Source of the DNA: a bacterium
GTDB taxonomy: Bacteria; Elusimicrobiota; Elusimicrobia; UBA1565; UBA9628
Direction: 5' to 3'
NCBI GenBank assembly: GCA_021822495.1
Contig: JAKAQO010000001.1
Span: 310,001 to 374,000, forward strand
Length of the DNA: 64,000 nt
The first letter of the stretch is position 1. The number at the start of each line of letters is the position of its first letter. The notes below the pieces were generated by a model that was not told where the DNA came from, ran no database searches, and worked only from the letters and a program-made list of their open reading frames with translations. Below, piece after piece: positions 47,651 to 53,272 of the stretch. The translations under genes were made by a program, and so were the position numbers.

Positions 47651-47926
47651 ATGGCCACGCTCAGAAAAATCAACGAACGGCATCAAATCACGATTCCCCC
47701 CAGCATCCTTCGGGACGCGGGGCTCCCTTCCGCGGGGCTTTATTCCATAGAAGCCAAGGAAGGAAAGATCATTCTTGAGCCCCAGGAAATCAAGGGAAAA
47801 GACCTCGAAGAAGAAGATTGGAAGGCCCTGGAAGCCTTCATCCGCAAGCAAGTTGATTCCGGAGAATGGACGCAATATCCAAACCCCCAAGCGGCCAAGA
47901 GTCACTTTAAACGTCTGCGCAAGTGA
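47651..47926 (+). CDS. AbrB/MazE-type antitoxin
   Basis: The 91-residue protein has an N-terminal SpoVT-AbrB swapped-hairpin domain (LRKINERHQITIPPSILRDAGL) that binds DNA, and a charged C-terminal tail (KGKDLEEEDWKALEAFI) expected to wrap the toxin. Its stop overlaps the toxin gene (GTGA), the standard arrangement of type II modules. The strong promoter upstream contains the likely operator. Confidence 0.85.
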   Translation: MATLRKINERHQITIPPSILRDAGLPSAGLYSIEAKEGKIILEPQEIKGKDLEEEDWKALEAFIRKQVDSGEWTQYPNPQAAKSHFKRLRK

Positions 47927-48225
47927 TTCAAGTCCGTTATCTTCGCTCTTTTGACCAAGCTTTCTTGTCTCTGCCCAAGCGGGATCAAGTTCTCGTGGAA
48001 AACGCGGTCCAGCGGCTTTTGGACTCTTTCGACGACAAGCCCCGCCCCCTGGGCCTGGGGCTTCGGAAACTCAAGGGCTCTTTCTGGGAAGTTCGCGCAT
48101 CCCTAAACAAAAGAGTTCTTTTTACCTTGGACAAGAATTGCGCAACCTTCATTGTAGTCGGAAACCACGATGAAATTCGGCGCGCTCTCGGACGTTCACG
48201 CGGCGTTTCGGGAATCCTTTCATAA
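47923..48225 (+). CDS. RelE/ParE-family toxin
   Basis: The 100-residue protein starts with GTG overlapping the antitoxin stop. The sequence VRYLRSFDQAFLSLPKRDQ, then KLKGSFWEVRASLNKRVLF and VGNHDEIRR fit the RelE-like ribonuclease fold. These toxins cleave mRNA at the ribosome; the basic residues typical of the active site (Arg in EVRAS and NKRVLF) are present. It is followed by a short gap and a new promoter. Confidence 0.82.
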   Translation: MIQVRYLRSFDQAFLSLPKRDQVLVENAVQRLLDSFDDKPRPLGLGLRKLKGSFWEVRASLNKRVLFTLDKNCATFIVVGNHDEIRRALGRSRGVSGILS

Positions 48226-48293: not shown

Positions 48294-49970
48294 ATGGCAA
48301 CGATAATTTCGACGGCTCCGATACCCGGACTTAAGATTTCAAGAGTAGGCAGTTCGCGCAAGATTAACAAGAATAAAAAGAAAGGCGGCGGGCTGTTTGG
48401 CTTTGGGAGTAAGGCCGCTGAAGAAACCGGAAGTTTAGTCCGCGCCCGCGCGGCCACATCCGTTTTATCGGCGGGGGCTTCCGCCGCTGGCGGCGCGGCG
48501 AGAGCCGCTCTTCCCTTTGGAGCCAAGATTTTCATGACCTTAATGCTGGGCATCGCGGGTTTTGGCGTCTATTCCGCAAGACAAGCCTTTAACAGTCGTC
48601 CCGTCATTCCCGCGGCCAGCCCGCGGGTTTTCGCCCCGCGCTCCGCGCCTCAAACGCAAGCCCCGCAAGCTTCCGCCGCGCCGGCAAATCTTCCAACAGA
48701 TAATCAAGGTTATAGTTCCTTAAACATGGTCAAAGGCGGGCTTCCGGAAATGCAGTCTCCGGCCCCGGCGCCTGTTCAAGCCGCGGCCGCGCCGCCCCCA
48801 ACTCAACCCGCTTCGCCGGCCATTCCCGATATGTCGGCCCTAACCCAGGCGGCTAAAGCCGCCAAGGGCGGAAACGGCGGCAGCCCCTTTGATTCCAAGG
48901 TCGGGCAACTCGACAGCGCGATGCCAAGCCTCTCCGGCGGCGGCCCCGGCCTTTCCGGCGGAGTGGGTATGCCATTTCAGAAAATGCAGCCGGCCGGCTT
49001 TTTGCAAAAACCTAAAGCCATGGCCATGGCCCAAACAGCCCCCAGCATGGGCATGGCTCACGGCGCCGCGTTTGGCGGCGCGGGAAAAGCTTTTAGTCAA
49101 GCCCGAAACGCCGCGGCCTACGGGGGCGCCGCCCAAAACTCAAACGGCGCCGGGGCGGCTTATAATTCCGGAGCGCAATTTGACAGTCCCATCGGCGCGC
49201 CCGCCACCATGGGCGCCCCGCAGGGCATCGGTTCCGGCACCGGGCTTTTAGGCGCCGCGGATGCCAATCCCTCGACTAACCCCAATGGAGGCGGTCAACC
49301 CTCCGGCGGCGGCGGTGGCGGCAACTACGGCAATTCCAATTATTGCCCGGGGTGCATCCCGGGAGGCTCCGGCGGCGGAAGCAACGTCACGCCATGGGGA
49401 GGATTAACGACAGCAGCAGGTCTTCTTCTCACAATAGCTGGATTGATGGTTTTAACAGCCTCTTTGTTGGCTAAGAGTACGATCCCTTGGGTTCTCACAC
49501 TAGCTCAATGGCTTGGAGGAATTGGAGCAACCTTAGCAGCAGCAGCAGCAGTAATGGGAATGATCATAATGTCCCAAGGCCAGACCCTCCAAGGGCTTAT
49601 ATTTACCCTCGGAGGCGGGCTTTTAGTTTGGGGAGGAATCAATGCTCTTATGGGTGCTGGCCAGGAAGCTACAGCATTAGCAAATGCAAACACTCAAACT
49701 ATCGATCAGACTATAAATGAGCAGATGGCGGGTTTCCAACAACAAATGAACAATCTGAATAATGCTTTTCCTTCAGAGATTGTAAGTGATCCATCCAACC
49801 TGGCAACCTATAATCCTGGTAGCCTCAACTATAACCCTCTTCTCGATCCACTGTCTCCCGCCAACGCAGTTGGCCCAACCACCCCATCTGCCGTTTATGA
49901 GACCCCCATTGCTTCTGGTAGCTCAGTGACTGTATCTCAAGCTATTATGAATGGAGCAATTTTACAGTAG
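48294..49970 (+). CDS. Gly/Ala/Pro-rich multi-pass membrane protein
   Basis: The 558-residue protein has a basic N-terminal patch (RKINKNKKKGGGLF), one membrane helix at about 78-95 and a long low-complexity Pro/Ala/Gly/Gln region (100-365; PAPAPVQAAAAPPPTQPASP and similar). A Gly-rich stretch with a Cys pair (YCPGCIPGG) follows. Three further hydrophobic helices lie at about 370-450 and the tail is Asn/Gln/Thr-rich. I do not recognise a family. The DNA changes character at about 49395: GC-rich with C/G third positions before, A/T-richer with A/T third positions after. The gene therefore looks like a mosaic or a recombination product. Confidence 0.7.
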   Translation: MATIISTAPIPGLKISRVGSSRKINKNKKKGGGLFGFGSKAAEETGSLVRARAATSVLSAGASAAGGAARAALPFGAKIFMTLMLGIAGFGVYSARQAFNSRPVIPAASPRVFAPRSAPQTQAPQASAAPANLPTDNQGYSSLNMVKGGLPEMQSPAPAPVQAAAAPPPTQPASPAIPDMSALTQAAKAAKGGNGGSPFDSKVGQLDSAMPSLSGGGPGLSGGVGMPFQKMQPAGFLQKPKAMAMAQTAPSMGMAHGAAFGGAGKAFSQARNAAAYGGAAQNSNGAGAAYNSGAQFDSPIGAPATMGAPQGIGSGTGLLGAADANPSTNPNGGGQPSGGGGGGNYGNSNYCPGCIPGGSGGGSNVTPWGGLTTAAGLLLTIAGLMVLTASLLAKSTIPWVLTLAQWLGGIGATLAAAAAVMGMIIMSQGQTLQGLIFTLGGGLLVWGGINALMGAGQEATALANANTQTIDQTINEQMAGFQQQMNNLNNAFPSEIVSDPSNLATYNPGSLNYNPLLDPLSPANAVGPTTPSAVYETPIASGSSVTVSQAIMNGAILQ

Positions 49971-50034
49971 GAGGAGTTGTGCCCCAAAGGAATTCACCAA
50001 CATTCAACCGATGTATAATATCAAACGTGGGACC

Positions 50035-50190
50035 ATGGCGCTAACTCTAACACAACAAATTGTAGCCTTAGCCTTATGCCCCTTTTTATTTAACGCCTGT
50101 GGATATGAAATCAGTCCCGAATTCTGGGGACACATCACTGATCCCCCTGTCGCTGCCTCAAACCCCAGGTCAAAGACGCCGCGCATTTAG
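50035..50190 (+). CDS. Truncated small lipoprotein
   Basis: The ATG at 50035 opens a 51-residue frame with a lipoprotein signal (QIVALALCPFLFNAC, lipobox FNAC). About 25 residues later the frame runs out of register into a copy of the caspase gene's tail (junction near 50156) and stops. The start of a lipoprotein gene therefore appears joined to unrelated DNA. Composition is A/T-rich like the 3' half of the preceding gene. The original C-terminus is lost. Confidence 0.5.
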   Translation: MALTLTQQIVALALCPFLFNACGYEISPEFWGHITDPPVAASNPRSKTPRI

Positions 50191-50258
50191 ATTCCCGCGA
50201 CCAAGACCCGCAACTGTTGCCGCCTCATTCCCCGGCGGACGGATTGCAGTTGCGATAG
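50157..50258 (+). pseudogene. Orphan 3' end of a caspase-like gene, tail T1
   Basis: The frame beginning CTC AAA CCC CAG reads LKPQVKDAAHLDSRDQDPQL, then LPPHSPADGLQLR and a TAG. It corresponds to the last 33 residues of the intact caspase-like protein at 51682-53094, but ends differently (PADGLQLR instead of PAEDIKLR). No caspase catalytic segment is upstream, so this is the remnant of a lost paralogue. Confidence 0.75.
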
Positions 50259-50311
50259 TCAAAGATTAAATCGGATGACTTTTCCAAAAAATGCTAAAGT
50301 GAATTTGCGCA

Positions 50312-50570
50312 ATGAAAGAGGATATTCTCGGCATCCGGGATTATGACGGCGTCGAAGTCGTCCTTGAGAAATCCGTATGGCATGGAAAAATTCTCCATCC
50401 AGCTCTTGGCCATCCGGAGGTCAGGGATTATTTGGACGAAATAAAGCTAACCGTTCAATCACCGGAAGCCGTTTATGCTAGCGGGGGTAAAGGGCTATGT
50501 CAGCACCGCCTTTATTGCCCGATCTCTTAAAAAGAGAGGTGAAAAATTATGGCCAAGATTGGCAAGCTAA
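50312..50570 (+). pseudogene. Broken toxin-like gene (RelE/PBECR-type fold)
   Basis: An ATG at 50312 opens GIRDYDGVEVVLEKSVW and HPEVRDYLDEIKLTVQSPEAVYAS, similar to the start of small nucleases of the RelE/PBECR type often encoded beside DUF2283. After VYAS the frame is lost, and the matching C-terminus (VKGYVSTAFIARSLKKRGEKLW) follows in the +1 frame from 50487 to a TAA at 50568-50570. Some 30-40 central residues appear deleted. The family label is inferred from pattern memory. Confidence 0.55.
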
Positions 50571-50821
50571 CGCTGGGATATGATCCCAAACGGGATATTT
50601 TGGAAGTGACGATCGGAAACAAGGCCCAGGAGGCGATTTCCGTTGAGGAAGATGATGTGTTCGTTCGAATGCGGCCAGACACTGGAGAACTGGTGGGAAT
50701 GACGATTATCGGGTTCAAACATTATTTATCCGACAGACTCTCCCGCAATGGGAAACCCGTGGAATTCTCCGTTGAGACTCGCGCGCCCGCGGCGCAGCGG
50801 CGAATTGAGAATACCCTTTGA
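50549..50821 (+). CDS. DUF2283-family protein
   Basis: The 90-residue protein has the DUF2283 pattern: GYDPKRDILEVTIGNKAQEA, then VEEDDVFVRMRPDTGELVGMTIIGF. DUF2283 proteins are small and often paired with toxin-like genes; an antitoxin role is suspected, not shown. GAGAGGTG precedes the ATG. Its start lies inside the 3' part of the broken toxin gene, as expected of an original two-gene module. Confidence 0.75.
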   Translation: MAKIGKLTLGYDPKRDILEVTIGNKAQEAISVEEDDVFVRMRPDTGELVGMTIIGFKHYLSDRLSRNGKPVEFSVETRAPAAQRRIENTL

Positions 50822-50841
50822 TTTTAAGTGGGTAAATCTAG

Positions 50842-50935
50842 GACGCCGCTCATTTAGATTCCCGCGACCAGGACCCGCAACTGCTTCCGCCAAATTCCCC
50901 GGCGGAGGATATTAAACTCCGTTAGCTCTTGACGA
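50842..50935 (+). pseudogene. Orphan 3' end of a caspase-like gene, tail T2
   Basis: From GAC (50842) to TAG (50925) it reads DAAHLDSRDQDPQLLPPNSP and then AEDIKLR, exactly the protein end of the intact caspase-like gene. The DNA differs from that gene at only four of 84 positions, and all four are synonymous. The match continues 10 bp past the stop (ctcttgacga). The upstream body of the gene is missing. Confidence 0.8.
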
Positions 50936-50961
50936 AATCAAACTAGTCTGTTAAACTAGTT
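50929..50961 (+). promoter_or_regulatory. Promoter/operator of the Phd-VapC pair
   Basis: TTGACG (50929-50934), 17-bp spacer, TAAACT (50952-50957). A perfect inverted repeat, AACTAGT (50941-50947) with ACTAGTT (50955-50961), overlaps the spacer and -10. The ATG of the antitoxin is at 50964, about where transcription should start, so the message may be leaderless. The -35 box lies in the copied downstream end of tail T2. Confidence 0.6.
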
Positions 50962-50963
50962 AT

Positions 50964-51206
50964 ATGGAACATCCCATCAGCGCTTTTGAGGCCAAAACCC
51001 ATCTTTCGGAACTTCTGCGAAAGGCGGAAATGGGGGAATCCTTTCTCATTCTTAAAAGAGGCCGGCCCGTCGCGCATCTAACGCCTATAGTGGAAGAAAA
51101 AACATCCTCCTTCCTGGAAATCCTTGACCGCTTAAGCTCTCTCCGAAAAAAAATTCCGGGCCGCATGGACGTCCTTAAGCTCATCCAATCGGGACGGCGA
51201 TATTAA
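50964..51206 (+). CDS. Phd/YefM-type antitoxin
   Basis: The 80-residue protein has the Phd/YefM fold pattern: PISAFEAKTHLSELLRKAEM followed by LILKRGRPVAHLTPI. The N-terminus binds DNA, while the C-terminal part (LEILDRLSSLRKK) should neutralise the toxin. It has no Shine-Dalgarno sequence, consistent with a leaderless start. It shares one base with the start of the PIN toxin gene (TAATG). Confidence 0.85.
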   Translation: MEHPISAFEAKTHLSELLRKAEMGESFLILKRGRPVAHLTPIVEEKTSSFLEILDRLSSLRKKIPGRMDVLKLIQSGRRY

Positions 51207-51622
51207 TGGATTGCGTCCTGGACGCTTCCACCGCCTTGGCCGCGGTCTTGCCCGATGAACGCTCGGGTCAGGCCGAGCAGATGTTGCGGCGCTTTTCTAA
51301 AAACAAAGATGGGCGCTTTCTCATTCCCGAGCTCTGGTGGCATGAAGTGTCCAACGCCCTTTTAAGCGCTTATCGCCAAAAACGACTCAAGGAAGCTGAG
51401 ATGGAGAGAATTGCCGAACTCTTGAATCAGTGGCCCCTCCGCCCCGAATCTTCTTCCGGATACGAATTCTCCCGCCGCCACAGGGCTTTGGCTCTTTCTC
51501 ACCGCCTCTCTGTTTACGACTGCGTTTATCTTGAGCTTGCCGAGCGCAAAGGCCTCCCCCTGGCGACTCTTGACGAAGAGATGCGAGCCGCGGCGAAACG
51601 TTTGGGAATTTCGGTATTGTAA
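51206..51622 (+). CDS. PIN-domain (VapC-type) toxin
   Basis: The 138-residue protein has a PIN-domain ribonuclease pattern. The acidic active-site residues are visible: Asp in VLDASTA, Glu in WWHEVSNAL, Asp in VYDCVYLELA and Asp in ATLDEEM. VapC toxins cleave tRNA or rRNA. The gene is directly downstream of its antitoxin gene. A caspase-like gene follows. Confidence 0.88.
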   Translation: MDCVLDASTALAAVLPDERSGQAEQMLRRFSKNKDGRFLIPELWWHEVSNALLSAYRQKRLKEAEMERIAELLNQWPLRPESSSGYEFSRRHRALALSHRLSVYDCVYLELAERKGLPLATLDEEMRAAAKRLGISVL

Positions 51623-51681
51623 GATTGCTTATGTTCACTAATTCACCTCAAGATTCACGCTCTTATGTTAAAGATATCCGA

Positions 51682-53094
51682 ATGGAGCGAAGGAAAAATA
51701 AATTGTTTGGACGCATAAGAATTTGGGCCCTATTGCAAACATCGCTCATTGCCTTTTGTGGTTGCACGACCCCTCTTATCCGGGCCGTAAATAACGGAGA
51801 CTACAATCAAGTGCAGGCGCTGCTAAATAGAGGAATGGACCCAAACACGAAAGGGCTTCCGCCTATAGGATTTCAAGGCGGACAGAATATCTGTGATAAT
51901 ATATTCTGCACTCCTGCCCCTGGGATAGGGTTATTGGGGTTCGGGATAATGCTGTGCCCCATGTCTCTCCTTTCTCCCAGGAGAACGCCCTTGGAACAGG
52001 CCCTTTGTCTTCTGTCAGGAACCCATTCGGATACTCAGTTAGAAATCACCGAACTCTTGCTCCAAAGCGACGCAAGAGTTTCATCGCAAGATGTCAGAGA
52101 TGCCCCCCCTTCCGTGGCTCGCCTCCTATCGGAAACGCACGAGAGACAAATGGCGGCATTCGAACAAAATCATATCCTTGCGCCCAGTTATAACAGGATA
52201 AGCGCAGTCCCTCATTCTGCCGCTAGTCTGGATTCCGGCGCAAGCAAAAATAGCGCAGAAAATGGAAATAGGGACAGTCCGCAAGGGACAGTCCCTATTT
52301 CCGCGCCTATTTCCGTCAACACGCCGAATTATTCCGAGCGCATCCATCCCGACGATTTCGCGGTCGTCGTCGGCGTCGAAAAATACGCCGAAAGCCTTCC
52401 GCCCGCGGAATTTGCGACCAGCGACGCCAAGGCCGTCTTTAAACATTTAAGAGCCTTGGGCGTTCCCGCCCGGCATATCGTTTTTTTGTCGAACGAACGC
52501 GCCGGAAAAAGCGAACTCGTCAAAAATATCGAGCGTTGGCTTCCCATGAACGTGAAATCCGATTCCCGCGTCTACTTTTATTTCTCGGGCCACGGCGCCC
52601 CCGACCCAACTACCGGCGACGCTTATCTCTTGCCTTTCAGCGGCGACCCCTCCGATCTTCCCGACACCGCCTATCCCTTAAGCCGCCTTTACGCCCATCT
52701 CTCGCGCCTTAAAGCCCATAAGGTGATCGCGATGCTGGACTCCTGTTTTTCAGGAGCGGGCGGGCGTTCCGTCATCGCTTCCGGCGCGAGACCCCTGGTC
52801 AATCAAATCAAAGAAGGAACGGTGTCCCCCAAGGGCAAGCTTTTAGTTTTGACTGCCTCTAAAGCCGATCAGATTTCCGGCGTCTTAGAAGACAAGCGTC
52901 ACGGAGCGTTTACTTATTATCTTTTAAAGGGCTTGAACGGCGCCGCGCTCAACCAACAAGACCATGTCACGCTTGATTCTCTTTACAGTTATCTCAAACC
53001 CCAGGTCGAAGACGCCGCGCATTTAGATTCCCGCGATCAGGACCCGCAACTGTTGCCGCCAAATTCCCCGGCGGAGGATATTAAACTCCGTTAG
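51682..53094 (+). CDS. Ankyrin-caspase (C14) lipoprotein
   Basis: The ATG at 51682 gives a 470-residue lipoprotein precursor (LLQTSLIAFCGC). Earlier starts at 51625 (TTG) and 51631 (ATG) are in frame but make an unusually long signal. Residues after the lipobox resemble ankyrin units (PLIRAVNNGDYNQVQALLNRG; LEITELLLQSDARVSSQD). A caspase-like domain follows, with catalytic His in FYFSGHGAP and Cys in MLDSCFSG, so proteolytic activity is plausible. The linker between the halves is encoded by a REP palindrome (DSPQGTVPIS). The ankyrin part is A/T-richer than the caspase part, suggesting a chimera. Two tail fragments of related genes lie upstream. A peripheral envelope protease is the inferred role; the substrate is unknown. 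Confidence 0.8.
   Translation: MERRKNKLFGRIRIWALLQTSLIAFCGCTTPLIRAVNNGDYNQVQALLNRGMDPNTKGLPPIGFQGGQNICDNIFCTPAPGIGLLGFGIMLCPMSLLSPRRTPLEQALCLLSGTHSDTQLEITELLLQSDARVSSQDVRDAPPSVARLLSETHERQMAAFEQNHILAPSYNRISAVPHSAASLDSGASKNSAENGNRDSPQGTVPISAPISVNTPNYSERIHPDDFAVVVGVEKYAESLPPAEFATSDAKAVFKHLRALGVPARHIVFLSNERAGKSELVKNIERWLPMNVKSDSRVYFYFSGHGAPDPTTGDAYLLPFSGDPSDLPDTAYPLSRLYAHLSRLKAHKVIAMLDSCFSGAGGRSVIASGARPLVNQIKEGTVSPKGKLLVLTASKADQISGVLEDKRHGAFTYYLLKGLNGAALNQQDHVTLDSLYSYLKPQVEDAAHLDSRDQDPQLLPPNSPAEDIKLR
52264..52302. repeat. REP-like palindrome at the ankyrin/caspase junction
   Basis: GGAAATAGGGACAGTCC, a short centre, then GGGACAGTCCCTATTTCC. The arms GGAAATAGGGAC/GTCCCTATTTCC pair. It is translated in frame within the caspase-like protein and marks where the DNA changes from A/T-richer to GC-richer. 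Confidence 0.8.
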
Positions 53095-53105
53095 CTCTTG
53101 ACGAT

Positions 53106-53130
53106 GGAAATGGGGACAGTCCCCATTTCC
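53106..53130. repeat. REP-like palindrome after the caspase-like gene
   Basis: GGAAATGGGGACAGTCCCC followed by ATTTCC, a perfect 11-bp inverted repeat around a 3-bp centre. Same GGAAAT-flanked subtype as the copy at 52264, so the caspase-domain segment is bracketed by two members of one subtype. Confidence 0.85.
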
Positions 53131-53272
53131 GCAATAGGACACCCATTTTACAATACCCTCTAGGCCCTTGCGGAAGCCTGGAAGGATTTTAAATCCCAGG
53201 TTTTAAATTTCATAGATTCTTTCGCGGAAAAAATCACGGACTATGGACGGGAATCGGCCGTTCTCCCGCAAG
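53131..53272 (+). other. Gap after caspase gene with possible gene remnant
   Basis: No intact gene. From 53164 a frame without stops reads LAEAWKDFKSQVLNFIDSFA followed by EKITDYGRESAVL, until about 53310 inside the exonuclease gene. It looks protein-like (helical, charged) and could be the residue of a lost gene. There is no start or ribosome site. Confidence 0.25.

Follow-up and report, generated by a model that had tools for sequence, protein, structure and literature searches.

Bodyless 3' ends upstream of an intact caspase gene in an Elusimicrobiota genome: probable relics of two duplicated copies

Multiple caspase paralogues per genome are known among the prokaryotic caspase homologues (Peptidase C14, metacaspases) of other phyla, and none were found in Elusimicrobia in 2012 (PMC3501461). 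Against that zero, the caspase family is found in most of the related genomes compared here, with up to 27 matches in one genome, and the intact gene at the present locus resembles the described homologues in having the Pfam domain with its His and Cys motifs. The locus is also comparable to the pseudogene relics of birth-and-death evolution, in which extra copies are mostly deleted and one copy stays intact; it differs in that the extreme 3' end survives recurrently and near the same codons, which is unusual and may be a detection effect. Small modules between remnant gene ends are likewise seen where Phd-VapC or AbiE-type modules lie beside decaying genes, whereas here the module promoter abuts the caspase stop codon and the module seems to have been duplicated with the caspase. 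A literature search found no paper on Elusimicrobiota with peptidase C14 and none on caspase pseudogenes that lie in tandem next to toxin-antitoxin modules.

The stretch of DNA analysed (the window; 64,000 nucleotides, with the caspase gene, its tail copies, the VirB6-like gene and the toxin-antitoxin genes between the tails on its plus strand) belongs to a genome of 2.2 Mb, and the related genomes are Elusimicrobiota. The intact caspase gene (51682..53094) is defined by its open reading frame, a Pfam Peptidase_C14 match and orthologues in relatives. It encodes a lipoprotein-type leader, one ankyrin-like repeat and the Peptidase_C14 domain (Pfam), in which the catalytic motifs SGHG and DSCFSG are both present; compared by sequence with solved structures, it gave no match. 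Its tail (52993-53094) is the source for the comparison with the two other copies. A palindromic repeat of the GGGACAGTCCC type runs in frame at 52262-52304, within the linker that joins the N-terminal part to the caspase domain, and encodes PAKAGI/FRRNDG-like peptides. The caspase linkers of three relatives (L047, L048, L049) likewise contain palindromic repeats in frame, and these repeats partly differ between species.

Two further copies of the caspase 3' end, T1 and T2, lie upstream without a caspase body, as an earlier note on this DNA had claimed and as both a repeat search and a whole-genome search bear out. T1 (50157..50258) consists of 34 codons including the stop, corresponds to the final 102 bp of the intact gene and ends in the ancestral-like ADGLQLR. 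T2 (50837..50935) corresponds to the final ~88 bp together with 10 bp of 3' flank; its coding part runs from the GAC codon at 50842 to the TAG at 50925. The extent earlier given to T2, 50842-50925, captures the recurrence but ends too soon, as homology continues past the stop to 50935. The repeat search returns a single 99-nt family of three copies, with identities to T2 of 75% (T1) and 94% (intact gene). A search of the complete genome with the intact tail as query recovers the query itself (E 7.7e-53), T2 (4.3e-38) and T1 (1.4e-30), and no fourth copy, the next match being 19 bp at E 0.1. All three copies share one orientation within a span of 3 kb, and the family is confined to this locus. 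T2 and the intact copy differ at four of 84 nucleotides, in three codons and with no amino-acid change, in agreement with the earlier count of four synonymous sites; over the same 84 bp T1 differs from the intact copy by 14 nucleotides and five amino acids. A search with 113 caspase-containing frames as queries detects no caspase sequence between the tails in any frame; the intact gene has the catalytic domain with its His and Cys, whereas upstream of T1 and T2 none is detected. T1 and T2 are relics, not caspase genes.

Judged by profile searches, the tail belongs to a large Elusimicrobiota family of lipoprotein caspases, whose conserved C-terminus it represents, and is no unrelated element. 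When 38 caspase C-termini are aligned, their consensus reads LYDYLxPKVxDAARRxNRDQTPQLxP...LR, and the tail model matches T1 at E 1.6e-11 and T2 at 1.0e-9, which makes both homologous to the C-terminus of the Peptidase C14 family. Across 49 related genomes the profile matches almost exclusively the C-termini of caspase-sized frames, rather than stretches beside many non-caspase genes, and only a handful of the ~300 matches are bodyless. Within the genus and 12 further genomes from the first batch, no clear bodyless copy was seen besides T1 and T2, apart from one gene that a contig end truncates. A second tail in G003 was rejected, its gene being split by a contig end, and in G021, G013:C30 and elsewhere the tails within short frames belong to frameshifted or contig-end caspases and do not count as bodyless. 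Nor does the tail behave like the repeated recombination site of an integron cassette array: the genome holds only three copies, all derived from caspase and not placed behind many unrelated genes.

The ancestral arrangement is visible in three relatives of the same genus (G001-G003), each of which has one caspase at this place, directly behind a VirB6-like gene. In the window the VirB6-like gene is a conserved membrane-protein gene (48294..49970), VirB6/TrbL-like by eye and with a weak Pfam match to Maff2. The caspases of G002 (L047) and G003 (L048) have the lipoprotein and ankyrin-like N-terminus of the intact window gene; the single caspase of G001 (L049) has a shorter N-terminus. A flippase gene lies downstream of the caspase, immediately in G001 and G003 and after a DUF4143 gene in G002, and in G004 a DUF6036/AbiEii-like gene occupies the locus without a caspase. 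The flippase of the window's genome lies 220 kb from the caspase, so the downstream side has been rearranged; no tail copy is found near it. A sister genome with intermediate states was not found among the relatives.

T1, T2 and the intact tail have bases in common that the three same-genus relatives lack, which places the origin of the copies in the window's lineage. Specifically, T1 and the intact gene read CTCAAACCCCAGG where the relatives read CTCGCCCCCAAGG, and a PPxSPA segment is common to all three copies. The ending of T1 resembles those of two relatives (GLxLR, NLTLR), whereas T2 and the intact gene share the derived ending EDIKLR as well as the 10 bp after the stop codon. The T1 ending, earlier described as the one that had diverged further, is therefore the ancestral-like one, and the polarity is reversed. 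With a related intact copy beside them and a single copy in the relatives, the tails have the make-up of pseudogene relics.

The pattern of substitutions points, with moderate strength, to past protein-level constraint on the tails. None of the three nucleotide changes private to T2, among them a double change in one leucine codon, alters an amino acid (P 0.009-0.028 in simulations free of constraint), nor does any of the four T2/intact differences (P 0.003-0.007), and T1 and the intact gene show five unusually conservative replacements in 14 changes (P < 0.001); the test rests on 28-34 codons, is weak and partly post hoc, and these probabilities give moderate support. The earlier view that T2 had been under protein-level selection keeps its footing in the synonymous excess, at the moderate strength that such short sequences allow.

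We consider it probable that the intact caspase gene once had two additional copies, made by duplication, of which deletion left T1 and T2 as pseudogene relics. One caspase, located behind the VirB6-like gene in the ancestor, would have duplicated in the window's lineage, with the T1 copy keeping the ancestral place and the other copy altering its C-terminal codons and having phd-vapC directly behind its stop. A second duplication, of caspase and phd-vapC together, would have produced T2-phd-vapC and the present intact gene, so that T2 would formerly have been a full-length gene. Deletions may then have stripped the T1 and T2 copies of their bodies, with ~28-34 codons of each 3' end remaining, and the phd-vapC that followed the intact gene would have been lost with 10 bp left. 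Besides the lack of a sister genome with intermediate states, the shortness of the tails and the commonness of CTTGACGA (see below), two observations weigh against this account: no body fragment survives in front of T1 or T2, and their breaks lie within ~15 bp of each other, which would be rare for independent random deletions. A lipoprotein-leader-like ORF (50011..50190), which enters T1 out of frame, may represent the start of the T1 caspase with its own leader kept; it has no homologues at a useful E-value.

Related genomes offer parallels. Neighbouring caspase genes lie at L100 (three genes), L102, L104, L105, L107 and L108, and at the first five of these loci the genes stand in tandem. 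Further bodyless tails lie at L160, L161, L174 and L176, and no intact caspase was found within ~15-19 kb of those at L174, L176 and L160; at L175 a caspase with internal deletions is joined to its tail. Together with the shortened toxin-type gene of the window, these tails and the L175 deletions show that deletions sparing gene ends are seen repeatedly. The earlier picture of a former paralogue array whose 5' parts were replaced by cargo holds in part: the tails are 3' ends of in-paralogues, given the lineage-specific bases and the tandem caspases in relatives, while former full length of both copies and replacement by cargo are conjectural, plain deletion fitting equally.

T1 and T2 each directly precede a toxin-antitoxin module, in line with the toxin-type modules that the earlier note named between the tails. 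Behind T1 lies a toxin-type gene remnant (50312..50548); compared with the intact gene next to DUF2283 in L131, it carries an internal deletion and is frameshifted. After it comes a DUF2283 protein (50549..50821; Pfam, homologues), a putative antitoxin partner. The toxin-type partner is broken while the putative antitoxin remains intact. Behind T2, a Phd/YefM antitoxin (50964..51206; PF02604) and a VapC-type PIN toxin (51206..51622; PF01850, homologues) follow one another in one operon, the arrangement of a type II Phd-VapC toxin-antitoxin system.

A promoter-like site (TTGACG-17-TAAACT) with a palindromic operator (50929..50957) precedes phd-vapC and begins at the T2 end, its sequence CTTGAC..AAACTAGTCTGTTAAACTAGTTATATGG starting where T2 stops. 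A similar promoter layout is present, without a caspase tail, at the phd-vapC homologues of G019 (L122), G040 (L121) and G033 (L125), and the CTTGA promoter edge occurs both at phd-vapC homologues of other genera and behind the stop codon of the intact caspase. There, CTCTTGACGA (53095..53104) equals the left edge of the post-T2 phd-vapC promoter and probably marks, as a footprint, where a copy of phd-vapC was lost; it is abutted by a GGGACAG palindromic repeat, GGGACAGTCCC (53105..53137). Duplication of the caspase-phd-vapC unit and later loss of the second phd-vapC would be the simplest account of this footprint, which is suggestive only because the 8-mer CTTGACGA is common in the window (10 occurrences, one inside vapC). 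Alternatively, the -35 box of phd-vapC may have been taken over from sequence flanking the caspase.

Rather than whole genes, only the ~100 bp caspase 3' ends could have been copied next to the toxin-antitoxin modules, by short templated or partial duplication and with no full extra caspase ever present. The shortness and similar length of both copies, the absence of body sequence and the rearranged state of the locus, its ancestral downstream neighbour now being distant, would all suit such copying. We nevertheless regard it as unlikely, since the T2-private changes, synonymous throughout and including the double leucine-codon change, are unexpected in a dead fragment, the older ancestral-like ending shows that T1 is no recent copy of the intact end, and whole caspase genes do duplicate in relatives.

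Duplication and deletion by themselves leave the clustered tail starts unexplained, an effect that is partly one of detection. Counted in tail codons, the breaks fall at 10 in T1, 15-16 in T2 and 11-17 in the others (L160, L161, L174, L175, L176), and the tail model's limit of detection, near codon 16-17, may cause part of this pile-up. A preferred break point ~26-34 codons before the stop in caspases of this order, at which a recurrent, site-biased process of body loss or cargo (toxin-antitoxin) entry leaves 3'-end scars, is a rather improbable cause.

The earlier note ranked att-like insertion, in which cargo integrates at the caspase 3' end, displaces or duplicates that end and leaves the tails as integration scars, as the weaker alternative, and we concur in thinking it very improbable. 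In its favour, the tails here and at L160, L161, L175 and L176 start within a few codons of one another, and at L160 the AbiEi and DUF4143 genes separate a caspase end from a bodyless tail; the pile-up near codon 16, however, falls at the limit of what the model detects. When an element integrates into the 3' end of a gene, the gene is rebuilt and the displaced end comes to lie downstream of it; T1 and T2 both lie upstream of the intact gene, opposite to that expectation. In addition, none of the nine ORFs scanned with Pfam is a recombinase, no integrase lies between the tails, the copies are diverged, and bodyless tails are rare among the matches in the 49 genomes. It is scarcely credible that a function of their own, as regulatory RNA, as terminator or as a site of cassette recombination, has preserved the tails as a repeat, for although each stands immediately before a toxin-antitoxin module, there is no Rfam family or terminator-like site at T1 or T2 and no further genome copy, and T1 and T2 differ in their 3' third.

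Duplication followed by deletion is an ordinary process, here well preserved; the locus is informative gene archaeology for which known processes suffice, with no new mechanism. It documents birth-and-death evolution in a strongly expanded Elusimicrobiota caspase-like family, with bodies lost and 3' ends kept, and it advises caution: where bodyless gene ends lie among toxin-antitoxin modules, decay should be checked before they are called attachment or cassette sites.

Three smaller observations concern the surroundings. Between the TPR and VirB6-like genes of the window, a two-gene toxin-antitoxin-like pair (47651-48225; AbrB-like and RelE-like as judged by eye, without a Pfam match) is present that is missing from G002. 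At L160, which belongs to another genus, positions 1-2540 hold in the same orientation a caspase end, AbiEi, a DUF4143 ATPase and a diverged bodyless tail, which makes it a second such locus. The displaced flippase gene of the window's genome (G000:C4:137957, L158) has a tRNA-like gene beside it, together with an ORF that by eye encodes a phage-type integrase.
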